Positions 16,921 through 62,773 of a stretch of 64,000 nt of DNA are shown here, piece after piece. This stretch comes from Bryoerythrophyllum caledonicum (lineage: Eukaryota > Streptophyta > Bryopsida > Pottiales > Pottiaceae): positions 47,645,527 to 47,709,526 of the forward strand of contig OZ020514.1 of NCBI GenBank assembly GCA_963971425.1. The letters are read 5' to 3'. A program made the translations under genes and the position numbers. The notes beneath the pieces were generated by a model, which saw only the letters and a list, made by a program, of their open reading frames with translations, searched no databases and was not told the origin of the DNA. Every line of letters begins with the position of its first letter. Position 1 is the first letter of the stretch.

Positions 16921-18290
16921 GTATTCCATACCTGATTAGTCTTACGGTCATCAAGAACAAGGAGGTTAACGAAGCTTACAGCATGTTGCTCGGAAGACCA
17001 TGGCTGATAGATGCCAAAGTCCAGCATGATTGGGGCAACAACCTTGTGACCATTCGTGGAGGCGGCACTGTCAAGACCATTCTTGTCAACCAGCGCACAA
17101 GCCCCAGACCTAAGCTGCCAGAGGTCGTCGTCGCCTACAGCTTTGAAGTTGGACTGACATAAGAAGGGGAGACCAGATGGCTGGATACAGAACCAAATGT
17201 CTTGGTTGTTGGAACCGTAACCTTACCTAGTTTTGGTGTAGGTCCAGATTCGGACCCCGTCCCAGATACTCCGCTAGTACGAGAGTCAGCGCCAGACCCA
17301 CAGACTTCTACAGAGGACCAGAAGAGTCCACATGCCACGTACCCGGAGCACTTCTATACATTTACGGAAGGTGACATCGATGTAGACGAAACTCCCGTGC
17401 GGATCAAGGTCCAGGACATGCTGGTGGCGGCCTGGACACTTCCTGAGTCAGAACAACTACGGAAGGTCAATGTGGGGACAGAAGTGGAACCACAGTATTT
17501 GCGGATAAATGCTGATCTCGACCCGGAATTGGGTGCACAAGCAGAGCCACTCCTTCGGGAGTATAAGGATGTCTTTGCATGGACATACAAGGATTTGAAG
17601 GGGATACCTCCTTCAATCGCCCAGCATTGGATTGAGTTGGAGAAAGACATACCTCCAGCCCATCAAGCTAGATACAGGATGAATCCAAACTACTCCAGCA
17701 TTGTCAAGCGTGATCTGGACAAGTTGCTCCAGGCTGGATTCATCGCACCAGTGGAGGATGCTACATGGCTATCACCCATAGTCATTGTGCCCAAGAAGAA
17801 TGGGAAGTTACGCATATGCATAGACTTCCGGAAGCTGAACGCAGCAACCAAAAAAGACCCGTATCCATTACCTTTTACAGAAGAAGTTCTGGATACTATG
17901 GCGGGTCATGAGGTGTACTCGTTCATGGACGGATACTCTAGATATCATCAGATCCAAATTGCCCCGGAGGATCGATATAAGACAGCCTTTGTTACAGACT
18001 GTGGAGCTTTCGTCTAGATAGTTATGCCATTTGGACTTAAGAACGCTCCACCCACATACCAGAGGACAGTGAACAAAGCATTTCGGGAGTATATTGATGA
18101 CTTCATGAAGCTGTTTCTAGACGACTTCAGCGTCTACAGTGATATATTCACTCATCTCAAGAAGCTTCGGCTGTGCTTTATCAAGTGTCGGGAGTATGGC
18201 ATTAGTCTGAACCCGGAGAAATGTGCACTACTGGAGTACTCTGGAATTATATTAGGCCACGTCGTGTCCAGAGAAGGCAAATTTCCAATC
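16921..18290 (+). CDS. Protease end and reverse transcriptase region of the Ty3 element
   Basis: After the remainder of the protease and a linker, the Ty3 reverse transcriptase begins near 17.6 kb. Visible blocks: the finger/palm motifs around 17.8 kb (RICIDFRKLN), FMDGYSRYHQI near 17.93 kb, MPFGLKNAP near 18.03 kb, and the catalytic FLDDF box near 18.11 kb. This enzyme would copy element RNA into DNA. Fossil; broken. Confidence 0.9.
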
Positions 18291-18960
18291 TGAAGAAGAT
18301 TGAGGTCATCGCCAACATGTCAAGACCAACAAAACCTAAAGACGTTCAGGTGTTTAACGGCTTTGCCCAGTTCAACAGGTGCTATATCCGGTCCTATGCA
18401 CACATCATGGAACCCATAACCAAACTCATGCGCCAAACTGAGGAGTTCATTTGGACTGATCAATGCGAGAAGGCTTGGCTGGACATCAAGGAGAGGTACC
18501 AGAATGCCCCGATTCTCATTGTACCACACTGGGATCTGGAGTTCCACATACATACAGATGCCTCCAACATTGCTGTGGGCGTCATGCTGGCCCATAATCC
18601 CACTGGAAAATGTGACCAGCCAATCTCCTATGCTTCTCGAGTGTTGAATTCAGCTGAGAAGAACTACACCACAACTGAACGGGAAGCTCTGGCGATGGCG
18701 TATGCTCTGAGTAAGTACCGACACTACTTATTGGGCAATAAAATTGTTTTTTATGTTGACCACATGGCTTTAGTGTACCTGGTAAATAAACCACAGGTAT
18801 CCGGACGAATCGCACGGTGGCTCTTACTTTTCCAAGAGTACGATTTCACTGTGGTTTATAAACCAGGCAAGATCCATGGAATTGCGGATGCTTTGTCCAG
18901 ATTACCCAATGGTGAACCCCCAACTGGAGTGGAAGATCAAACTGGAGATGCAGGTCTGTT
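18290..18960 (+). CDS. RNase H region of the Ty3 element
   Basis: Typical Ty3 connection and RNase H text: HIHTDASNIAVGV near 18.55 kb carries the first catalytic Asp, TTEREALAMAYAL near 18.68 kb the Glu, and VDHMAL near 18.76 kb and IADALSR near 18.88 kb later ones. It follows the reverse transcriptase directly. Confidence 0.9.
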
Positions 18961-20790
18961 CTATGTGAACTCAGAGTGGTTACAGGATGTGACAGCCTAC
19001 CTCCGTACTGGACATTTGCGACCTGAATTGTCCAAGGATGAACAACGGAAGCTCATCCTCAAATCCCTCCCGTTCACCCTCATATCTGGAGTGCTGCACA
19101 AGAGGGGGCAGGATCTGGTTATCTGCCGAGTACTGGACCCCGGTCAAGCCAAACTGGTGATGCGGAAATTACACATGGGGGTTGGAGGCAGCCATTTTTC
19201 ACAAGACATTACTGCACGAAAGATTCTGGATGCTGGATACTGGTGGCCAGCCATACACAGAGACGTATCGGAGTATTGTCGGGCCTATGACAAATGTCAA
19301 CGGGTGGGAGGAATGACAACCACGGGACTTGCTTAACTTGTTACCAGCATGCCCGTGGAGCCCTTCATGAAGTGGGGACTGGACTTTATTGGGCCCATAA
19401 AATCCATGCCGTCCAGATTAGGGTGCCGGTACATTCTGGTGGCAACCGATTACGCTACCAAGTGGGTCGAGGCTCGGGCCTTGAAAACAAACTTTGCTAC
19501 TGTCACTGCAAGGTTTCTGTATGAACAGATCTTGACCAGGTACAGGTGTCCTTTGACATTTGTCAGCGATCAGGGCTCCTACTTTATCAATGAAGCAATC
19601 GAGTATCTGGTGGATCATTTTCTACTCCAGCACCGAACTTCTACAACATACTATCCACAAGGGAATGGTCAAGCGGAATCTACCAACAAGGTGATCGGCC
19701 AACTCCTCACAAAATTGGTGAATGAGAAGCGCACGGACTGGGACGAACATCTCCATACCGTGTTGTTTTCCTACAAAACAGCATATAAGGTGTCAATTGG
19801 ACATACACCATTCCAGCTGGTGTATGGCTTGCATTTGATGATGCCCACAGAGTACCTGATCCCAACCCGGACATCGGAAGGATCTTTGGACTATACAGCT
19901 ACATGGATCTTGGCAGCTCGGATTGCAGATCTCGAGCAGGTGGACACTTACCGGACAGTGACCCAGGAGCAGGTTGGCAAACAGCAGTGGGACCGAGCAC
20001 TCTGGAGTCAGCAACATTACAAGCAGAAGGACTTCCAGATTGGAGATCATGTTTTATGGTATCCAAAGGGCCACAAGGAGCACACCGGTAAATTCAAGAG
20101 CCGGTGGTTTGGGCCTTACCGGATCCAATACAGATTACCGAACAACACCACTCTTCTGGTGAAGGTGGACAACTTTGAGCCAAATCCAATTTTAATCAAC
20201 ATCAACAAGCTCAAGCCCTATCGGTTTTATGAGACAAACCAGGCACTTCCAGTCATCTCAGATGACTCAATCCAAGGACAGATTGAGCAGCAAAAGGGGG
20301 ATAGTGGTCCTAAAGACCAAGTTCAAAAGACTCCGACTTTCCCAGGAAGTCTAGATACTGCGAGAGTTACAACAAACCGGATAGTGCGAATGGCTCAGAC
20401 AGTCCAAACGGAGTGGCTGGGAAGGGATGGCTTGGATGACAATCTGGAGTCATCCGGACGGAAGGGTTCAGACAATTTGGAATTGCCTGAACACAGTGGT
20501 CCAGACAAGGTGAAATTGGTGGAACAGGGTGGTCGAAGCGATCAGATGAACCAAGAAGGACTAGGATGTCTGGAGTTTGAGGAGGTAGAATCTGAAGAGG
20601 ACCTGGAGAACACAGGAAACCCAGGCGAGTACCACAAAGTGGTTCTAAGGAACCATGGCAATTGGAAAAGTCCAGTGTTTACTTCAACACTGGCAAAAAA
20701 CAATCAGCAGGGCACTAGTCAACTAGAGTTGGAGAACCCCAGATTAGGGAGTTACGTGGGAGAAAAATGCAAGTCCAGCCACAACCAAAA
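18960..20790 (+). CDS. Integrase region of the Ty3 element
   Basis: The zinc-binding head lies near 19.16-19.30 kb (H-x-G-x2-G-x2-H, later C-x2-C). The core has WGLDFIGP near 19.37 kb, SDQGSYF near 19.57 kb and an NGQAES block near 19.67 kb, giving the D, D and E positions. A basic C-terminal region with KFKSRWFGPYRI near 20.09 kb follows. The long hydrophilic extension after about 20.3 kb is not a standard integrase part. A second polypurine stretch, AAAAGGGGG, sits at 20,292-20,300. Confidence 0.9.
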
Positions 20791-49769: not shown

Positions 49770-50750
49770 AACGACCACCCGATCTTTCAACGACCATACA
49801 AACTGAGTCTCTCTAAAAAAGTTGGAGTTCAGACTCGTTGTCAGGAGTTGTTGGCTGCCAGCTTGATTGAGCTCTCCAAAGGCGAATACGCTTGTGCCAC
49901 GTTGATGCCATCAAAGAAGGACATCCTTGGAAACTGGACGGAGAAGCGGATGTGTGGGGATAATAGGCGTTTGCTACTTTGAAGCTGAAGCTCGGTTTAG
50001 CGCATATACTGTCGCGTCCAGATGCTACATGGCCTTTCCACTTGCACACAGATTGGAGTGCGGTAGGATTGGGAGCTGTATTGACTCTGAAGGATGATGA
50101 GGGATGAGAGTACGTTGTGGCGTTTGCTTCTAGGAGCAACAACAATGCGGAGTCCAACTAATCATCCTATGAGGAGGAGGCTTTGGCTGCGGTTTGGGCC
50201 ATAGCTCATTTTAGGCCCTACTTGTATGAGCAGCGTTTTACCTTGGTGATCGATCACCAGCCTTTAAAGTGGCTCATGGAGTCTGACAAGCTTACTGGCA
50301 AGCTTGCCATGTGGGCTTTGCTGCTTGAGGAGTATGATTTTGAGGTTGTGCATCGGGTGGGCATCATTAACTTGGATGCGGATGGGCTATCTTGCAATCC
50401 AAGTCCATAGGAGGAGGATTTGATTGGTGCCAGGTGGCATGGAGACTTTGACAAAGAGTCAGTCCCAGGGTGGTATGTAGTAGCCTACCTCACATTGATG
50501 TCCAGATCCACATCAACATTGCATGATATGGCAACGGATGGGAAACTGGATAGGGTCTTGGATGTTAGCGACGTGTGGAAAGACGTTCCAGTCTTGCACA
50601 AGCTACAACATGGCACACTTCCGCTCGCTCTTTCGGCCATGGAGCAGGATCGAGTTGGACACCGTATAGTGAGGTTCCATTAGGAGAACGGCCTTCTATT
50701 TTAGTTGTGGCCAGATGGATCTAGGCGCATAGTTCCCACTTCGGATCAAA
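49770..50750 (+). mobile_element. Ty3-type fragment: reverse transcriptase edge, RNase H, start of integrase
   Basis: RNase H text is clear (AAVWAIAHFRPYLYEQ and VIDHQPLKWLM near 50.18-50.28 kb), followed by the pre-integrase stretch (LHKLQHGTLPLAL near 50.6 kb). The same sequence family occurs in reverse orientation at 54.7-57.8 kb. Compared with that copy, most of the reverse transcriptase is absent here. Old and broken. Confidence 0.8.
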
Positions 50751-51604
50751 AAGTGTGAGCCAAATAAACCGCCCCCTAACGGGTGGCTTATCTTGAACAC
50801 AAGACCCTAAGTGTGGGATACAGCCCCTTGCTCAACCATCATTTGACCATCCATACGAGCACGGTGACCCATGGTGTGGTTACTTAAGGAGGTTCATTAC
50901 CGATTAGTGCTGTGATGGCTGAATTCAGCCTTAAATTGATCCCAACCTTTAAACAAGCATAAGTTCCACCTTAAGACTCCGTTTCCAACATTTTAAAGCT
51001 TAGATAGGTTCAATTTAACCTTGTGAACTTGATTAGAACCTCAGCAACCAATTCCAGACCAAAGTGCGACCCTGACAGCAGCGGCCAGCAGGCAGGCTTC
51101 TTCTTTTTATACCCAGAGTTTAATCCTTCATTATCTTCATGGTTATGACTCCGTTTTCTATATTTGTTTTTCAAATTCCTAATAGTTTTTCTTGCTTAAC
51201 ATGATGGAAGCCTTCAATTAACCCTTTAACTCAATCCTGGACTCACAGCCCACGACCAGCAGTGCACACTTAACTTACACGTTCATTCCAAATCGTGCAA
51301 CATACATTCACGTGTATACCACATGCATTCACACAAGTAATCTTATTTGAACATTATACCATACATGAGGCCCAGCTACGTTCCCTCACTACTTGCATTC
51401 AAACTGGTTGTTTTGTTTATATTGATGGAAACCCTAATTCTATTGCAAATTGGACAGCGCTTCCGCGCGATTTGTGTAACTGGAAAAAATTAGGGTTCCT
51501 TCTCCACATGCAATCAAGAGGATAATGAATCAATTGGAAGAGGAAGGAGGCTCCCTGATCTCGCTCAATTCACCATCTGCCGTGTTCGTGTTCGTTCTTG
51601 TGCT

Positions 51605-51705
51605 GTGGTCGTCTTCCTCTTCTTGTGTTGTGGTTGTCTTCCTCTTCTGTGATCGTGTCGTCCTCCTCTTCTTGTGTTGTGGTCGTCTTCCTCTTCTTGT
51701 GATGT
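51605..51705. repeat. 24-bp tandem repeat, about 4 copies
   Basis: Units of the form GTGGTCGTCTTCCTCTTCTT, spaced about 24 bp. Both the plus- and minus-strand frames over it are low complexity. Confidence 0.7.
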
Positions 51706-51713
51706 TCACTCCA

Positions 51714-52160
51714 CAGCCCGTATCTTCGTCGTCACAACTTCGATCCACACATTCTTGATCTTGTTAAAAAGCCAACACTCTAATCTATCTACTCCTAAAA
51801 TTTTAGCTTGATTGGACCAAAAGACCGCGACTGACGAGGGAAAAACCGAGGCCGTGTGGGATCCGCCGCCGATTGCTCTAGCTGGTTGTCCTCGCTCCGC
51901 AGCCCGTATCTTCGTTGTCACAACTCCGATCTGCACGTTCGTGAGCTTGTTGGAAAGCCAACGCTTTGATCTATCTACTCCTAAAATCTAAGCTTCATCG
52001 GACAAGAACTCTGCGACTGACAAGGGGAAATCTGAGGACAAGTGAGATCCGCCGCCGATTGCTCCAGTTGGTCGTCCTTGCTCTGCAGCCCGTATCTTCG
52101 TCGTCACAACTTTGATCCGCACGTTCATGAGCTTGTTGAAAAGCCAACGCTTTGATCTAT
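51714..52160. repeat. 186-bp tandem repeat, about 2.4 copies
   Basis: CAGCCCGTATCTTCG starts at 51,714, 51,900 and 52,086, an exact spacing of 186 twice. Shared blocks include AAAGCCAACGCTTTGATCTA and GATCCGCCGCCGATTGCTC. Confidence 0.9.
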
Positions 52161-53269
52161 CTACTCTCCAATTTTCGTAACGATTGAATCAAATCCGAGC
52201 CTACAGAAGGGGGAAATTTGGAATCCTACCTCTCTCTCTCTTTCCACACACCTCTTCTCCGTTTCCTAGCTCCTACCCCTCACACTTCGAATGAGCATCC
52301 TCCCAGGGGGTAACCCCAAGGCCCTTGCTCCCTTCTTTGTTCCCATGGTCGTTCCCTCGATGTCCACAACCGCCACTTTTGGGTGGGCACATTAATGGTC
52401 ACACTAAACAATTAGTAACTAAGAAGCTAATAAATCACTAGCCACCCTTGCATTTAACAAAAGTGGGTGTCCCACTAACCAAGGAATATCTAAATCTCAC
52501 TTTAATCCCATGCCACATGTGTGTGCATGATCTCCAATAAGTGAGCTATTACGCTAAATTCAAGGATGCTAAATCTAACTAATCTACCTAAATTGAATTC
52601 CCCTTGCTTGGGGTTAGGATTAATTTACCAAGTGATGGTGAGGGTTTTTTCCCACTTCTTTTGGACCTTTTTTCTACTTTTTTAAGGGCTTTTTAAGCCT
52701 CCTTCTTTTCTTTCCTTCTCCTCACCTTCATCCTTCTTCTTCTTCTCATTTTTCCCGTGGTTTCTTCACCATGGCCAATGGTGGTCCCTAATTCGGTAGG
52801 AGGTAAATTCTTCTCCACCACTTCTAATTCTAATCCCTTTCTATTGTTTTTTTGTTTTCCAACATTTTCTTTATTTTTTCCTTTCTATTTATTTTTTTAG
52901 TTAACTTCATAAAATTCTTGGTTGCCACAATGTGGCTCCTATTTTAAGAATTAGCGCATGGAAAGGCTATTTAGCCATCTTGATAAAAAATCACGAGCTA
53001 ATTCAATGGGATGACCCATTTCTACTACTTGTTAACCTTAACGCACATGATGCGTGGTCCATTTGTCATCGCGGGCCGTTTTTGCGCCTCACAAAAGGCT
53101 TCGTTGGTAGGTACACAAAGACCTTGGTCATTTTGGCGTGCAGCGTACTCATTGGCTGCTGCGCAGCCAATGTTGGTGGACCAGCATGTATCAGTAGGTT
53201 GCCACGTACATTTCACAATGTGAAGTCTATGATCGGGTGAGATCCAGCTTCAACACCTTATCACCACAA

Positions 53270-54560
53270 TTGCAGCCTTTGCCCATCATGGGTTTGGGCT
53301 ACTATTGACATCTGGATTTTGCCGGGCCGCTTGTTGTCACCTCACGTGGAGACAAGTACGTGTTGATGATGGTGGAGCACTTCAGCAAGTGGATTGAGCT
53401 TGTGGCACTACCACAAAACTCCTCGGAGTCAGCGGCCATGGCATTCCTTGACCGGGTGCTGGCTCGTTTTGAGCCCCAGCTGAGGTGTTGACTGACTAAG
53501 GGCGTGAGTTCCTTGGTGCTTTCAAGGCTTTGTGCACCAAAGCTTTGATTGAGCACCGTACCACTTCTCGGGATCATTCGGAGGCGGACGGTTTGCTGGA
53601 GCGTGTGGTTCAGACCGTCAAGCGTGGACTACGGAAGTATGGATTACTTCAGGGTGGCCACCATGATATGGATCTGATAATACCATGGATCGCCATGGGA
53701 TACCGGTTTAGCCGGCAGGCCTCTTTGGCCGCTTTCAGTCTGTATCACTTGTTATACGGACGGGAGCCGATTCTACCCAGTTTTGTATGGGAGAAGTTGG
53801 CCCCAGTTGTGGACTTGGATGATCCAGAACTTGTTGCTGGATGAAAAAGGTGGGCGGGAGTGTCGGGAGCACTCCAAGAACTATGCGCCCTGCCATTTGC
53901 CCATTGATGGCTCCGTGCATCCTGAGTTGGTCATTGTGCCACATGGTCTTCCGTGTTTTGTGTGCGGTGAGAAGAAGGGTGCGGGTACCATGTTAACAAT
54001 TTAGCGTGGATGGCATATGGCTTGCTTGACGCCGCCCCTCTCTACTCTACCGCCTGGAAATTGGACTTCGCCTCGTTGTAGGGGGTCTTCAGGCCACGTT
54101 TCATCAGATGAAACAACTTGATTTTTTCCTAGACATGTCACTAGTATGGTGTCCTGCCATCGAGTTGAAGTTCCTGGTTTTGTTTCAGGGATAGGCTACA
54201 TGGGGATTGACCAAGGGAATGGCAGCAAAGTTTCCGAAGGCGATTAAGGTTGCGGCTCACATTGCACCCCACCTACCCTCTCTTAGTTACCTCTCTTAGT
54301 TACTTCTCTATTGATTTATTGATGCGGCAAGGGATAACATCTTGAACTGGATGGGTACAGTTGTTGCAGCGGCATCACCGTGGCGATTGTCTACATAGTG
54401 TTGTTTGGTCCTAGCCGGATAGAGGGTCTCTTTATCCGCTAGGGGGGCACTTGAGGGTGTACTACGTATACTTGTTTTAGTGTATGTTTTTTGTTTATTT
54501 GATGTTGGTTGTGATTCTTGATCTGTTGTGTTTAGCAATCTTTGTTTACACGACACGTGT
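53270..54560 (+). mobile_element. Ty3-type fragment: integrase and 3' region
   Basis: Integrase core text near 53.32-53.46 kb (DFAGPLVV and EHFSKWIELVAL) and its later part near 53.55-53.83 kb (VVQTVKRGLRKYG and LYGREPILP). A purine-rich GGGGGGCACTTGAGGG near 54.44 kb could be the polypurine tract, with a 3' LTR start after it. Its last 51 bp pair with 54,680-54,730 in inverse orientation. Broken. Confidence 0.75.
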
Positions 54561-54730
54561 CGTGATTTGATCATACAATAGTTCCATTGCTTAAATAATA
54601 TATTTGGAATTAAGAGTGCCCATTAATGAAAGCACCACATTGAAATAACAAAATTTAAGGTCAACCCACCTCCCATATTGTCGTGTAAACAAAGATCGCT
54701 AAATACAACAGATCAAGAATCACAACCAAC
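54504..54730. repeat. Inverted repeat, 51-bp arms, 125-bp loop
   Basis: Arms 54,504-54,554 and 54,680-54,730 match with two differences. The left arm runs into a perfect 16-bp palindrome, CACGACACGTGTCGTG, at 54,549-54,564. This is the point where plus- and minus-strand Ty3 fragments face each other tail to tail. Confidence 0.9.
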
Positions 54731-57700
54731 AACACCCGAAATAGAAGGCCGTTCTCCCAACAGAACCTAATATTTGGTGCCCAACTCTATCACGCTCCAT
54801 AGCTGAAAGAGCAAGGCAAAGTGTCCCGTGTTGTAGCTTGTGCAAGACTAGACCTTCTTCCCACACATCGCTAACAACTTGGACCATATCCGGTTTCATA
54901 TCCGTTGCCAAATCAAACAACGTTGATGCGGAGCCACACATCAACGTGAGGTAAGCCGATGCATGCCACCTCCGGACTGACTCCCTATCGCAGTCCCCAT
55001 GCCACCAGGCACCAGTCAAATCCTCCTCCTATGGACTTGGATAGCAAGATAGTCCATCCGCATTCAAGTTAATGATGCCCACCCGATGCACAACCTCAAA
55101 ATCATACTCCTCAAGTAGCAAAGCCTACATGGCAAGCTTGCCAGTAAGCTTGTCAAACTCCATGAGCCACTTCAAAGGCTGGTGATCGATCACCAAGGTA
55201 AAATGCTGCTCATACAAGTAGGGCCTAAAATGAGCTATGGTCCAAACCGCGGCCAAAGCCTCCTCCTCATAGGATGATTAGTTGGACTCCGCGTTGTTGT
55301 TGCTCCTAGAAGAAAACGCCACAACGTACTCTTGTCCCTCATCATCCTTCGGAGTCAACACAGCTTCCAATCCTACCACACTCCAATCTGCGTGCAAGTC
55401 GAAAGGCCATGTAGCATCTGGACGCGACAGTATATGCGCTGAACCGAGCTTCAGCTTCAAAGTAGCAAACGCCTGCTGCTGCTCCCGTCCCTTAGTCCAT
55501 GGCTGATCTTTCCCCGTGAGGATAGTCAACGGCTTGGCAATCAAGCTAAAGTTCTTGACAAACCGGCGATAGTAATTGGTTAGGCCAAGAAAAGCTTTGA
55601 GCCGTGACACGTCGATTGGAGCAGGAATCTTCTGCAGGGCGTCAACCTTCGCCTGCTTCATGCCAAGACCTCCTGGAACAATCATATGTCCCAAGTATGG
55701 AAATCGGTCGTGCAAGAACTTGCATTTGCCAGGGTGCAAGCGCAATCCCCACTGTCGTAACCTCTCAAACACCGCCTGAAGATGCCTCACATGCTCCTAT
55801 GAGCTGCTACTAAAAATGATAACATCATCAATGTAGCATCGGACAAACAGTAAATGGGTCAACAGCGAGTCCATCACCCTCAGAAATTGAGCGGGTGCAT
55901 TCTTGAGGCCAAATGGGAGAAACTTCCAATGGTAGAGCTGATCTCTCCCATCCAGATCAACTCCCTAGAACGCGGTCTTCACCCAGTCATCCACCATCAT
56001 TGGTAACTGGTGGTAACCGGACCGCAAATCTAGAGTACAAATACTCTGGCATGTCCCACCGCATCAAACAACTCTTCTGGCGTGGGCATGGGATATCGAT
56101 CTTACTTGGTCTTACGATTGACCGGCCTATAATCCCCACACATCTGCTTCTCCGTCCAGTTTCTAAAGATGTCCTTCTTCGATGGCATCAACGTGACACA
56201 AGCATATTCGCCGTTGGAGAGCTCAATCAAGCTGGCGGCCAACAACTCCTGACAACGAGTCTGAACTCCAACATTTTTAGAGAGACTGAGTTTGTATGGT
56301 CGTCGTAAGATCGGGTGGTCGTCAAAAGATCAGGTGGTCGTCCTCCAACTGAATGTGAATCGGTTTGCCCCCGTAGCCCTCCAAATCATGGAGACTAAAG
56401 GCAAAACAACTACAATACCAACGTATAAACCCTCGTAGCCTTTGTACCTCGGCACCGGTAAGATGTGGCCCCAAATCCAAAGGCCAATCATTACACTCCG
56501 TGGTCTCCTTCTCCATCGTAGAAGACTCATTGCGTTTGGCACGGCCGATGATTGCTACTTGGTAACAGAGAGGGCATTAATGCCTCGAGACTCCTCACTC
56601 ATGAGATCCACATAAATTCCCGTTTCGTGATGATAAAACCGGGAAAAGATATCCCGGGCATCCTCTCGACCAAAGTCCTCAGCCAAGGTTGCTAAGACAC
56701 GCTGAGCACGAAGCTCCTCAAGTGCATGTCTCTTCAAACGAAAAAACAACTCCGCTTCCTTGATCTTTGAGAGATGTGGCACCGCTGCCCCCTGACCATT
56801 AGAGTCTGCCCCCAACACGTGGGATGGTCACTCAAACGGCGCTCAACGGCAAAACAAAGGCTACAAACCCAAACAAGGGTGTTGAGGTCAATGGCTTGAC
56901 CCAAAAAATAACGACGCTGGCCCTCAGAGAGATCCGGTGCAGCGGTGGTGCCTGTCAAAAAGCCCATCGCCCGCTTCCTCTCATTGGCACAAGGCTGCTC
57001 GTAAGTTTGGGAAGTAGAATCCCAAACCATGTCCGGACCACGTGTCCTAAAGGCAAAAGAGCCCGGATAGCACACCTGGGTGGGAAATGCTCCCCGAGTG
57101 AAACCAACGCAATTGACCACCGCTAATATTGGCTCATCATCCTTGGTAACTTCCGTGGAAACACGGTGGTCGTCCAAGATATCATCGACGTCACGACGCA
57201 CGGGCCGTTGCACTTAAATAAGTGCAGAGGTGGGCGTTGCCGATGATGCCATGTTGGTCCAAATCCAACGTGGCCGATGGGCGTAAGATCCCAACGCCGC
57301 GGCATCAATAAACGTGGGGGGACCAAGAAAGTGATGGATATATGCCCCATCCTTACGTACCTTCATCCGTGTATCCACCAATGGGGGTATATTGTCAAAA
57401 ATGTACCCGGGTGGTGTGGATTGGTGGATAATCCACCACTAGATGAGCCTGAGCAAATCTTCAAAGAGACCCTACCGGGGATCATCCAAGCCACGCCCAC
57501 TGCCCGCTCGTAAATGGCCTTGGCAAGGCCATCTCGCAATCACCAAGTCCACGTGACCTAATCGGCGAAGATCATCCTCACTAATCAACGTCATATTACG
57601 TGGAAACTTGCCGAAACACCCTCCAATCGTAGAAGGTGGTAACTGCTTTGGATACAATGCCAGAAGATGCTGAATGTGATGGTGAGCAGCACGGTTGGCT

Positions 57701-57770
57701 GCAAAGCCACTATCCACGTGGATATAGTGTCGTACCTTCAACCCGGACCAAGCTATTTTGCGTGCTCAAT
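54731..57770 (-). mobile_element. Ty3-type fragment with a C5-cytosine methyltransferase domain upstream of reverse transcriptase
   Basis: From high to low coordinates: a C5-DNA-methyltransferase region at about 57.76-56.83 kb, a linker at 56.8-56.5 kb, reverse transcriptase at 56.5-55.5 kb (YIDDVIIFS near 55.83 kb), RNase H at 55.45-55.1 kb, and the pre-integrase stretch ending at 54.73 kb. All are on one strand and in the usual pol order except for the extra domain in front. Integrase core is absent. The 5' end stops near 57.77 kb. It is an old fragment with many breaks. Confidence 0.8.
56830..57760 (-). CDS. C5-cytosine DNA methyltransferase region of the Ty3 fragment
   Basis: Motifs lie in the fixed order of C5 methyltransferases. 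A motif II/III-like block is near 57.70 kb (YIHVDSGFAA); motif IV, VDLVIARWPCQGH, has the catalytic PCQ at 57,528-57,520; a motif VI-like FDNIPPL (family form ENV) is near 57.39 kb; a motif VIII-like AHRPRWIW is near 57.27 kb; motif IX-like CANERKRAMGF is near 56.98 kb; and motif X-like LGQAIDLNTL is near 56.90 kb. The enzyme class transfers a methyl group from SAM to C5 of cytosine in DNA. Motif I is cut by the fragment's left end. It lies directly upstream of the reverse transcriptase on the same strand. Broken fossil. Confidence 0.8.
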
Positions 57771-58680: not shown

Positions 58681-61600
58681 CTATATTGCATAGTATTTGA
58701 GGAGTAGAATCTGAAGAATACGCTTGATTTCATTCCAACTGAAACTAGGTGCGTGAATAAAGACATCTACCTCCGGGTCTAAACCACACACAATGTTGAA
58801 TATGTAGTAGAGGTGCTTACAGTAAGTCCATGAACCGCGTTTGCCAAGCGATTTCTTCGACATCTCTGTGAAAGAGAGGCAGTCGCAGCTTGGAAATTGA
58901 CCAATTGTGACGAAATATCGGAAAACTGTGGAAATGTTCCGCGACTCCAAAGTGACAATGCAACCAAGGGCTGGAGGTGGAACCATTAGAATCGTGCAGA
59001 GTTTTCCCAGTATGGAGTGAGCAGAGGCGCAGCTGTTATGGTGACGAGTAGTAGGGGCAGCTTCGTTTCTTCGGATGTTTTTTCCGTATCGCTTGGTTGG
59101 ATGGTCTGTAGGGTTAGGAGGCATAGGGTAATCGTTCAGGTTCACCGAGACGCCTTCACCGAACAACTTTCTAGGAGAGAGAACCTCACGCTCAGCGAGA
59201 CAAAATCCAGCAGTTTCTAAGGCAAGTATCTCTATTCTGCTCAGATTTGTGCCCATCTGAACTGGCCAAAACTGTGGAGGAGGTGGCATACTTTGAACCC
59301 ACTTGCGCCGTGTGCCCATAACACAACGATGAATGTCGTCGTTGCAGAAAAAGAACCGATGTCTCTCTAATCTAGTCTTTCTGTAATTGTCCATCAAGCC
59401 AGTGTAAGTAGGGGCAGCTGTTGCTCGGTTGTTCTGTACAATAGATGCCACACACTTCTTCCTTGTACCGGCTTGAAGAGCGAAACATTTCCTAGCAGAT
59501 GTTTTAGGAAGCCTTGCGATGTGCCAGTCATTCTCATCACAGACTGACTCTTGTACAGCTCTCATGCCTGGAACTCGGGAAGAAGTTCTTGGTGGAGACG
59601 AAGAAAGTACTTTAGGAGCTTCCGGAAAGGGATTTGGTGATGGCAAGGGATCATCACCTGTGAGATCCACAATCACTTCATCAATGCGACGTGCCTTACC
59701 TCTGGGGCGGGAGATGCTAATCTTATACGGGCTATGTGAATCAAATTCAGAACCTGGAGGTAGATCAGCTTTTCTCTTCAAGGATACAAACTCCTCTTCT
59801 CCTTCCAAGTGAGGATTGCGAGTGCAGAATTCGTCCGCACCGGGCATGTTAGCGAGGGCGGCATGAAGAACCTTAGCATTTCCTGTGCGCTGCGCGGTGC
59901 GAAGGGCAGTACGGAGCCGGAGTTCTTCCTTTCCTGGACCTGTACCTGGCTTCTCACCCTTCAGGAATTGATAGTACGCGACAACTTGCATGAAAGCACG
60001 AACCATGTCGTCGACTGCAGCAACATACAAATCATTCCCTCGTTTTCCGGACTGTTGTAACCATTTGTTGTGAACCAACTCCGCCAAATTACAGGAAGGC
60101 ATCTCGGCTAGTTCAGCTTCACTGAGGTTCTGCAGAGAATGGGACAAAACATAGTTCAAGAAAAAGATTGAATTGTAAGGACCATTTAGAACAGCAAAGA
60201 AAAGCAATGCAGTGATGAAGACGTGAATTAAATAACATAGGAGTTCACTAAGAAGAGGGACATGTTAGGAAATCTGGCAATGCGACTTCAATGATAATAT
60301 GTAACGTAATCAGGGCCACAACTTTCGTACTGCCGATATCGGCAAGCCCAAAACTGATGGGGCGACTATCAAGCGAGAACCAAACTGCGGTGCTTCGGCT
60401 GTGGAGCACGAGTAGCCGACGTCGGCATTGTTGAAATGAATGATATGAAATGTAAAATACAGAATGTGCAACTTAGAGTTCTTTCTGGGTGCCTACAATG
60501 ACAAAGTCTGTGAGGCTATCGGATGACACCAATTCAAGCAATTGTGAAAAGCAAACAATGAGTGCACTTACAAGCTCCATGAATCCTCCCCACTGCCGAT
60601 ATCGGAAATGCCAGAAAGATAGCCAGAGCTCTAGTCTCGGAAGCCCGTCCTCAGTTGATGCCCCCGAGGACAACCACCACGCCCTGATTGCCAGGTACCT
60701 ACACTCAGCCACCTCCAACGAGATGGAATTTTTACATTGCTTATAGAGCCTTCGGTGCTGATCTTGGAGGTCGCTTCGAATATCTGCCTTCGTATGCTTT
60801 TCAAGAGACTGAGCCCAATGAAAGAGGCAAGTTCTTTCTCTGGACTCCATTGGAACGGCAGGGTCGCCACTACCATAAATTATTCGAACAACATTCCAGT
60901 TTGCTTGGGCACTATCCGCCATGAATCCCTTGAAATTTGGACTGAGGAGGTCATGCCTGCTACAAACTGCATTCAGATTCCGCCAGAACACTACTTGAGC
61001 TACCACATCTTCGGACTGCATATCGCAAATTGCAATGGTCATGACCCGACAGTAAGTAGAGTCGTACACATGGCAAGCCATTGTGGTCCAAGATTTGACA
61101 CGTTTGACGTGGTCAAACATCATCCAGGAGTCTCCTAAATCACCCCCTTGTTGCATTCGCTTCACTAAATCAACTCCACTCCCAGGACCAACCTCCGCCA
61201 TCTTGAAAATGAAGACTTTATCAGAGTCTGTTCCTTGACCAGGGAAACGATTCTCCTGAATGAAGGCCCAGTTGCTTGACCCCCTCAGCTTGGTGATGCA
61301 GTCCATGACACCGAATCGGCGAAGGTAACGGAACGTTGTCACCTCATTCCGAATGCTAGGAGAGGACATCAGTTTGAACTTGTCCAAGACGGGGACAAGT
61401 TCTTCCAAAGGCAATGTTCTCTGTGGCACGCCATCAGGGCATAAGAGTAATTCCCCAAGGAACTCCTTGCTAGCTTCGAGGACAATAGAGGAATTTGTTC
61501 CAGCCGGAGTTCGTTCCACCTGGTCGCCAATGAGGCAACGAAGCTTTGCAGAGGAGTCCCTGTAGTTCCCTTTCTTTACAGCATGACCATGTGAACCCAA

Positions 61601-62682
61601 GTGAATACAAGCTCGGGTAACATGGCTTTCGCCAAGAACGTAATATATCTTTGCCGGGCAATAGCCATAACAGGTAGGCGGAACGTGACACACAGCGCAG
61701 ACAACAGTAGAATGCAGAGGAGGGTCACAGCCAGGCACAAAAGGTGATGCAGAATTCCCCTCCCACTCAGTTTCATTAACTGAGGACGACCTGTTTGGAC
61801 GCTTTATAAAATCACAGGAATCATTGGCGCACTTGAGCTCGCCAAGACATGAAGACATTCGAAAGGTGAGGTGAAACTCAGATTTGATGTGCGAAGTGGC
61901 AGTTCTCGTCCAAGCGTGGCCATCATCCCGTTATCCATTCCGTGCAGGTGCCCAGCCTTTGTGGAAGGAGGATACTTTCCCAGAGGGGGAAGTTTGAAGA
62001 GGACATCTCCATTGAAATGTGGAGGAAGAAAATCAACCTTACGAACTGGAATGGAATTGTAATCTAGTTTTGACAAAACAGACTTCGATCCACGTCGGCT
62101 GCTAAGAAGTCGAAGATAGTGGACGATACTATCAGAAGGAGGAAGAGGGGGTTTATGATTGGCAGGACCAACACGCTGAGACGGAGAGGACTGAGAAACA
62201 TGGATTGCCGAGTTCAGAAGGGAAGCACTAGGAACGGTAGCATTAGGGATGAGGTCGCTATCGGAATCGTCACTTAGAACGACTACTCCTTCATCAGGTG
62301 GCTCTAGTTTAACCTTCCGGAGAAGTGGAGTCACATCAGCTGTAGCAGAACAGCGACCAGGTGTCAAGTTGGACGAACCGATATCAGGTGCATTATCCAC
62401 AGTTCCATAGACTCGATAGTTTCCACGAGCCAGGAGCCAAGTCTTTGTACCGTCAACAGAGGAAGGCATTTGAGCAACTGTATGGCTGACCTCGTTTGTG
62501 ACGGGGTCAAAAACATCCAGATCAACATGGACACTGTGTTCCAAGAATTGGAAACGAGAGGTTAAACGACTTTCAGAAACTGTAGCAAACCCATCTTCTA
62601 AAGCAGGAAAAGAAATGGGTAAAGCTTGACCAACAGCCCGAATGAAAACAGATCCACAGTTCAGAACATGTGAAGCAGCCAT
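58681..62682 (-). mobile_element. MULE-like transposase gene with SWIM zinc finger, copy 2, better preserved
   Basis: Start at the ATG of MAASHVLN (62,682), matching MASSSQ in copy 1. N-terminal domain; acidic/Pro linker with a VVVLSDDSDSD patch; Cys/His cluster near 61.6-61.83 kb (CANDSCDF, CIHLGSHGH); DDE-type core at about 61.12-60.57 kb (MMFDHVKRV, MADSAQANW, RERTCLFHW); a 442-bp phase-0 intron at 60,571-60,130; then CNLAELVHNKW near 60.08 kb, a disordered Pro/Ser stretch, and a SWIM finger (CDC ... CKH) near 58.88-58.81 kb. One frameshift near 61.92 kb separates the first third from the rest; otherwise the frame is long and open. The family would bind and move its own DNA; domestication cannot be excluded. 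No terminal inverted repeats were found. Confidence 0.75.
60130..60571 (-). other. Intron of MULE-like copy 2
   Basis: 442 bp, GTAAGT donor and TCTCTGCAG acceptor, phase 0 between MEL and NLS. Same position as the 77-bp intron of copy 1. Confidence 0.85.
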
Positions 62683-62773
62683 GAAATACAAGAGGTTTGG
62701 TGAAGAGATTCAAAAGAAGGCAGAGGCTAATGAGGCTAAGGATGCAAAATGGCAAGATCTTTGGAGAGGACGG

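Follow-up and report, generated by a model that had tools for sequence, protein, structure and literature searches.

A DNMT3-like methyltransferase ahead of a leaky-type UAG codon in a multi-copy Ty3-type retrotransposon of the moss Bryoerythrophyllum caledonicum

The stretch considered here, called the window, comprises 64,000 nucleotides of contig OZ020514.1 of the moss Bryoerythrophyllum caledonicum and contains the remains of a Ty3-type retrotransposon that bears a cytosine DNA methyltransferase (positions are numbered along the window; genome-wide searches were run over the 437-Mb, 894-contig assembly). This remnant, copy alpha, occupies 57746 to 54732 of the minus strand and gives one collinear alignment to another copy of the element, L024, with 88.3% identity over 3,019 columns. 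It belongs to the second of two element families and is truncated at its 5' end, starting inside the methyltransferase 3' of motif I, which is missing because of this truncation; there follow the rest of the methyltransferase, the end of the first open reading frame (ORF1), an in-frame UAG, the reverse transcriptase (RT), RNase H and the linker that precedes the integrase. The decayed methyltransferase region and ORF1 tail (56558..57744, minus strand; residues 958-1353) align by tblastn to the ORF1 of the intact copy L025, residues 958-1269 at 82% (256/312) and the tail at 79% (69/87), and the methyltransferase stretch is disrupted by three in-frame stops and a single change of frame. An earlier note on this DNA had read motifs IV, VI, VIII, IX and X here; of these, IV (WPCQG, with the cysteine codon of PCQ retained at 57523..57525 on the minus strand in the alignment), VIII (HRPR), IX and X are indeed legible, whereas VI is degenerate, with DNI in place of the ENV of L025. 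The border between the two open reading frames, UAG CAA UCA at 56549..56557 (minus strand; C1:47702064-47702083 among the genome matches), has a type I leaky-stop context. Directly downstream of the methyltransferase region and on the same strand lie the decayed RT and RNase H followed by the linker (54771..56534; ORF2 residues 8-589; tblastn 70-91%; Pfam RT_RNaseH_2, E 1.1e-14), and an internal deletion fuses this pol fragment to the 3' repeat end of the copy, namely the final 56 bases of a repeat named B (54679..54734, minus strand; blastn 82%) with the terminus TTTACACGACA.

Two results weigh against the presence of a methyltransferase when the window is taken by itself: the open pieces of 57.8-56.5 kb alone have no Pfam match at E<=0.1, and the window copy is absent from the 123 places scored for PF00145 genome-wide among 1055 candidates. 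The identification comes from homology to intact copies, which do match PF00145 (E 6.6e-14 and 5e-12), so that the profile search proposed in the earlier note succeeds for these copies and fails for the window fragment; by the same homology the central claim of that note, a methyltransferase region directly upstream of Ty3 RT and RNase H on one strand, is confirmed. This decay of the window copy, with its unmatched methyltransferase part, is the point in favor of a chance junction between an unrelated methyltransferase fragment and a Ty3 fragment. We nevertheless give that explanation next to no credence and regard it as refuted, because the junction recurs: the order is identical in 25 of 27 sampled element loci, copies of the border number in the hundreds, and the order is met again in other plants and in metagenomes. 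The family-2 border motif has 500 genome matches at up to three mismatches, the window site included, against 7 for its reversed control, which argues that the junction of methyltransferase and RT did not arise by chance. We are near certain that the fragment represents a dead copy of a multi-copy Ty3-type moss retrotransposon bearing a DNMT3-like methyltransferase.

The sampled loci consist of 20 stretches, each 10 kb long, that surround PF00145 matches and were chosen mostly for long open frames, and 8 loci from the PF00145 search; removal of one of these 28, L001, leaves 27 element loci. In all of them RT follows the methyltransferase, both on one strand, except in L002, which has no RT within its 3.4 kb, and L017, which has lost RT and kept the integrase and PHD finger. 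L001 (C14:16016358-16017317), the only near-full-length PF00145 match of the 123 listed, was set aside; it is a near-complete cytosine methylase of bacterial type on a chromosome-size contig, adjoins an open reading frame that resembles a bacterial transposase by eye, and looks like a contaminant or a transferred stretch.

Well-kept copies of the element fall into family 1 (subfamilies 1a and 1b) and family 2. Their ORF1 of 1353-1371 amino acids comprises a Gag region, a zinc knuckle (CCHC), an aspartic protease and the methyltransferase, the Gag and protease matches falling below the Pfam cut-offs, and their ORF2 of 1041-1047 amino acids comprises RT, RNase H, integrase and a PHD finger. In both families ORF2 matches RVT_1, RT_RNaseH, Integrase_H2C2 and rve, as expected of a Ty3 pol with a DDE integrase. 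A chromodomain is not among the Pfam matches of copies L009 and L025, in which, unlike in chromoviruses, the PHD finger occupies the C-terminal place. In L009, a 209-amino-acid open frame without a Pfam match (562-1188 of the locus, plus strand) ends in another frame directly before the family-1 ORF1 and is perhaps a further leader protein.

By its sequence, motifs and predicted fold, the methyltransferase of the element is DNMT3-like. Its motifs stand in the unrearranged DNMT3-type order with the catalytic residues; the motif IV cysteine occurs in 78 of 79 aligned relatives, the remaining one having a gap there, catalytic Cys, Glu and Arg are retained in nearly all of the 79, and the best match of the predicted fold is DNMT3. 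In comparison with DNMT3A and DNMT3B, motif IV reads WPCQ instead of SPCN, neither ADD nor PWWP is among the Pfam matches of the element's open reading frame, and the PHD finger is distant, at the end of ORF2. The domain is under purifying selection (Ka/Ks < 0.2): its dN/dS is 0.04 as against 0.24-0.36 in the flanking linkers, and its Ka/Ks amounts to 0.042 between subfamilies, where dS is 1.5 and thus near saturation, and to 0.08-0.17 in three pairs within subfamilies.

The supposition that methyltransferase and RT formed one unit stands insofar as ORF1 and ORF2 are in register, with the refinement that a conserved UAG of leaky type divides them. The border reads CAA UAG CAA CCA in family 1 and AAG UAG CAA UCA in family 2, between flanking residues that differ from one family to the other, and both versions match UAG CAR YYA, the type I readthrough rule known from tobamoviruses (PMC2754532, PMC11166343). 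Among the 27 element loci, the border codon is TAG in 24 and CAG in L023, and no border is recognisable in L002 and L014. When the stop was left open in the search pattern, 332 border places were found genome-wide for family 1 and 243 for family 2 (0 in either control); the best 100 of the 332 have TAG in 95, CAG in three, TAA in one and TAC in one, and the best 100 of the 243 have TAG in 99 and TTG in one. Six metagenome ORF1s (P0004, P0006, P0008, P0009, P0012, P0014) share the same end point, ALSAT followed by K, Q or E. Behind the stop, selection acts on codons 26-80 (0.053) and less so on codons 1-26 (0.294), and five of six alternative frames close within 8-36 codons. For the folding of the RNA downstream of the stop we obtained z-scores of -0.42, -1.53 and -1.94, and we claim no stimulatory structure there.

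From these sequence features, we consider it likely that a minority of translations pass through the UAG. Readthrough would place the methyltransferase at the level of Gag and the RT-integrase part at a fraction of it, and the conservation of a leaky-type stop hints at how much enzyme the element needs relative to RT. Some observations pull the other way: the border lists are ranked by mismatches and therefore show the best-kept copies, one of the six alternative frames runs on for 102 codons past the stop before it closes, and one of three ORF2s has its first methionine at codon 24, leaving room for internal initiation in that copy. This methionine would also suit an expression of ORF2 through internal initiation or splicing across the stop in place of readthrough, as would Marchantia gene models (P0011, P0013, P0024) that join methyltransferase and RT over the border, presumably via predicted introns. 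Such a route seems improbable to us given that two families with unlike flanking residues have UAG-CAR-YYA in common, that TAG dominates the best borders of each, and that in the two other ORF2s the first methionine comes at codon 82 or 117, where RT has been reached or entered. Readthrough of this kind has its closest parallel in tobamoviruses, with UAG followed by CAR YYA in both cases, the moss case being that of a retrotransposon and recognised from sequence. The methyltransferase of tobacco mosaic virus is an RNA-capping enzyme unrelated to that of the element; it likewise stands ahead of the leaky stop, with the polymerase behind.

At the ends of the element two repeats, A and B, are arranged as A-coding-B-A-B (A1, B1, A2, B2), an order present in L024 and L027 as whole copies and in L009+L029 and L015+L030 as two pieces each. 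All four elements with both outer ends start with TGTCA, end with CACGACA and are flanked by 4-bp target duplications (CCTC, AGGA, AGCA, TAAC). L009 and L015 show no difference between A1 and A2, and the two are 98.9% alike in L024 and 98.1% in L027; some insertions are therefore recent. Of 15 inner B/A borders in the sampled loci, 14 read CACGACA-GC-TGTCA and one has the spacer AC. Genome-wide, with any spacer of 0-6 bases, 313 such borders were found against 16 in controls; among the 100 of them that are listed, 78 have a 2-base spacer (GC in 63), 15 none and 7 another length. The 15 without a spacer read CACGACATGTCACG or CACGACATGTCAGG and may represent a further subfamily or chance.

Immediately 3' of A1 lies ACTTGAGAAAGAT in family 1 or ACTTGACAAAGAC in family 2, a site with 13-base complementarity to a stretch inside A1 in six of six copies and with two compensatory differences between the families; single-base shuffles equalled this complementarity in 0 or 1 of 2000 trials per copy, copies of the same family not being independent. 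The 13-nucleotide site looks like a self-primer site, and G-rich stretches ahead of B1 resemble polypurine tracts by eye. The likeness of A1 and A2 stops directly before the primer-like site, and that of B1 and B2 starts directly after the G-rich stretch, in family 2 with an uncertainty of a few bases (CTTGA is shared). If primer site and tract are what they appear to be, the long terminal repeat (LTR) of reverse transcription would be B-GC-A and the A2-B2 joint would be that of ordinary LTR cDNA ends; this joint is alike in 11 of 12 cases, with one extra T in L014. At the 3' end of the element in L022 (8591-9901 of the locus), B-A units of 599 bases stand in tandem and are 100% identical, which would also fit a circle with two LTRs.

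It is tempting to envisage a permuted integration, in which the RNA would act as primer for its reverse transcription, the LTR cDNA, once complete, would close into a two-LTR circle, and the DDE integrase would open this circle at the palindrome GACA-GC-TGTC inside one U3 and not at the LTR ends, so that no tyrosine recombinase would be needed for the A-coding-B-A-B layout; the DNMT3-like enzyme, made at the level of Gag, might then methylate the circle or the new insert ahead of any judgement by the host. We regard this scheme as possible but doubtful, because the tracts were recognised by visual inspection and the repeats themselves in part set where the joint lies. A tyrosine recombinase is not among the Pfam matches of ORF1 and ORF2 in L009 and L025, which do include the rve integrase; the leaders of L009/L029 and L024 have no frame longer than 209 amino acids, and five longer leader frames have no tyrosine recombinase match. 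The 4-bp duplications at both element ends likewise speak against membership in the DIRS group. Integration from a circle junction was once proposed for retroviruses and later abandoned, and the repeat layout of the moss element offers a test case for it. Tf1 of fission yeast is a self-primed Ty3 element, with a primer site 3' of R-U5 that is complementary to the transcript 5' end; the moss site is placed likewise with respect to a predicted 5' end, which the self-priming model puts near base 220 (family 1) or 182 (family 2) of A1. Unlike Tf1, the moss element has split repeats and would integrate with its ends inside U3.

The anatomy of this Ty3 retrotransposon, a Gag-protease-methyltransferase ORF1, a conserved UAG of leaky type and an RT-RNase H-integrase-PHD ORF2, is near certain, and the account as a whole is likely. 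As to the use of its enzyme, one may suppose that the methyltransferase is packaged and then methylates the cDNA of the element or the new insert; methylation would perhaps avert a foreign status or let the insert arrive in silent chromatin, a target that may be chosen by the C-terminal PHD finger. Because of the position of the domain, its selection and precedent, we hold methylation of the element's cDNA or new insert to be the most likely use, though with less than even confidence. Several facts count against it. At sites where four family-2 copies agree, copy alpha has undergone C-to-T change at 15.0% of CG (39/260), 16.6% of CHG (27/163) and 6.5% of CHH (52/799), and this excess in CG and CHG is as expected of ordinary long-term silencing by the host. 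The CpG observed/expected ratio is 0.55, 0.75, 0.84 and 0.81 in four element loci and 0.72 in the window; it is not uniformly low, so self-methylation has left no clear footprint. Finally, according to de Mendoza et al. (2018, PMC5890265), the enzyme of a Klebsormidium element was inactive in yeast, a result inconclusive to its authors since human DNMT3B failed too.

This inconclusive inactivity, the status of catalysis on DNA as a prediction, and the place of the domain in the frame of Gag and protease, from which it would be translated in the amounts of the capsid, are also compatible with an action on the element RNA or with a structural or RNA-chaperone role in the Gag layer. We think such a role unlikely, for the catalytic residues are kept in nearly all relatives, the predicted fold is closest to DNMT3, and 36 of 176 mapped proteins carry the domain between RNase H and integrase, a better fit to work on cDNA. 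Less likely still is an enzyme aimed mainly at the host genome or at competing elements, with a benefit to the host or in restraint of the element: the element has many copies in the moss genome, and de Mendoza et al. (PMC5890265) discuss as possibilities that the methylome of the host is affected and that transposition is slowed, but the dead copy displays nothing beyond a pattern of decay at CG and CHG for which host enzymes can account. The question arises as to why a transposon should encode its own silencing mark. Cytosine methylation is a plant means of transposon silencing, and yet a multi-copy element of a land plant keeps a strongly selected enzyme of DNMT3 type; since a moss is a land plant near to laboratory models, the question becomes more testable.

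A search with the methyltransferase domain retrieved 58 proteins, among them 13 of Marchantia polymorpha, 1 of Sphagnum fallax and 3 of Closterium, and a search with ORF2 yielded the Klebsormidium nitens protein P0229, in which protease (PR), methyltransferase (MT), RT, RNase H (RH) and integrase (IN) succeed each other. The domain order of the moss element exists in Marchantia, Sphagnum, Closterium and Klebsormidium proteins. Of 176 mapped proteins, 32 have Gag or PR before MT and no domain after it, and 24 have MT before RT within a single protein; apart from the 36 with MT between RNase H and integrase, one further protein ends RT-RH-MT. Some MT matches among these proteins are weak (23-28% in P0259, P0268 and P0274; 35 amino acids only in P0291). 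The proteins with MT between RNase H and integrase (P0034, P0035, P0038, P0040, P0041, P0046 and others) make up a second class of elements, mostly metagenomic. One locus, L031, the only one to emerge from a scan of viral contigs for relatives, was rejected as unrelated; its GC-rich sequence and its neighbours resemble, by eye, those of an actinobacterial phage, the cytosine methylase being an ordinary phage enzyme.

In a methyltransferase tree built by a quick method, with no outgroup or bootstrap and with host DNMT3 sequences and P0229 left out (the aligned stretch of the latter fell below the length cut-off), 41 of 43 Gag/PR-MT-RT rows form a single clade (Shimodaira-Hasegawa-like approximate likelihood ratio test, SH-aLRT, 97). 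Family 1 groups there with nine Marchantia rows and one unnamed row (96), and family 2 with six metagenome rows (100). The link between moss and Marchantia is supported in this one tree. In the Pol tree, all 21 RT-RH-MT-IN rows fall inside one clade of 25 (99), and P0229 stands beside this clade (SH-aLRT 94), away from the moss rows. The rows with MT before RT are not one clade in the Pol tree (14 rows, at least 9 changes); one reason is that proteins consisting of ORF2 only, with ORF1 unseen, were scored as lacking MT.

The window also holds a second copy of the element, copy beta, on the plus strand. Its RT-RNase H fragments (49773..50748) match L024 at 89-90% by blastn, and the copy continues at 53097..54555 with the integrase, PHD finger, 3' untranslated region and a repeat B with the canonical terminus, again matching L024. 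The 2.3 kb between these collinear matches (50749..53096) interrupt the copy and include three tandem units of 186 bases, 80-83% alike, at 51706-52193. A further and distant Ty3 pol stretch at 17514-19921 (plus strand) is 28-31% identical to the element's ORF2. Adjoining copy alpha, three long open frames on the minus strand (58681-60264, 60473-61930 and 61804-62709) have no Pfam match at E<=0.01; one of them holds CDCLSFTEMSKKSLGKRGSWTYCKHLYYIF, by eye like the SWIM zinc finger of DNA transposases. Elsewhere on C1, next to the element locus L018, a full-length plastid rpoB open frame occupies 57139410-57142604; its similarity to moss rpoB equals that of the 1074-amino-acid open rpoB of contig C894, a third copy on C821 reaching 88%, and the frame on C1 stems either from a recent insertion of plastid DNA or from a join made in assembly. 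In a protein database clustered at 90%, a plastid rpoB frame on C1 is 90% identical to that of the moss Lewinskya incana, 86% to Tetraphis, 84% to Sphagnum and 81% to Marchantia; a Musa balbisiana record with 72% identity ranks first by score, but mosses rank first by identity. The rpoB of C894 is likewise 90% identical to that of Lewinskya.

The earlier note had cited a report that retrotransposons of a charophyte alga and of dinoflagellates carry cytosine methyltransferases and had suspected another host or branch of this phenomenon. The citation is correct (de Mendoza et al. 2018, PMC5890265), and the suspicion is supported, since Ty3 elements of a moss carry a DNMT3-like enzyme. In the open-access literature, searched by titles and abstract openings, we found no moss or liverwort case beyond that report on algae and dinoflagellates. 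In the same paper, the Symbiodinium elements SymbioDIRS-Dnmt3 and SymbioLINE-Dnmt also bear cytosine methyltransferases under purifying selection, and two SymbioDIRS domains methylate CG in yeast; these elements carry a tyrosine recombinase or a LINE endonuclease, whereas the moss element has a DDE integrase. The moss element is of the same kind as KnitGypsy-Dnmt3, in a new host. Both combine Ty3 domains with a DNMT3-type methyltransferase under purifying selection, and P0229, which we take to be a K. nitens element of this kind, has the moss order. According to the authors, KnitGypsy-Dnmt3 copies are fewer than those of Symbiodinium, and a figure legend gives this element DIRS-style repeats with Ty3 domains, a feature shared by the moss element with its A-coding-B-A-B arrangement (PMC5890265). 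The words 'readthrough' and 'PHD' are absent from the main text of that paper. Relative to KnitGypsy-Dnmt3, the present description of the moss element has the 4-bp duplications and adds a host among the mosses, several hundred border motifs, a leaky-type UAG-CAR-YYA that is conserved, a C-terminal PHD finger and, with no literature search aimed at these last two, a self-complementary primer-like site and the reading of its ends as the product of a permuted integration.

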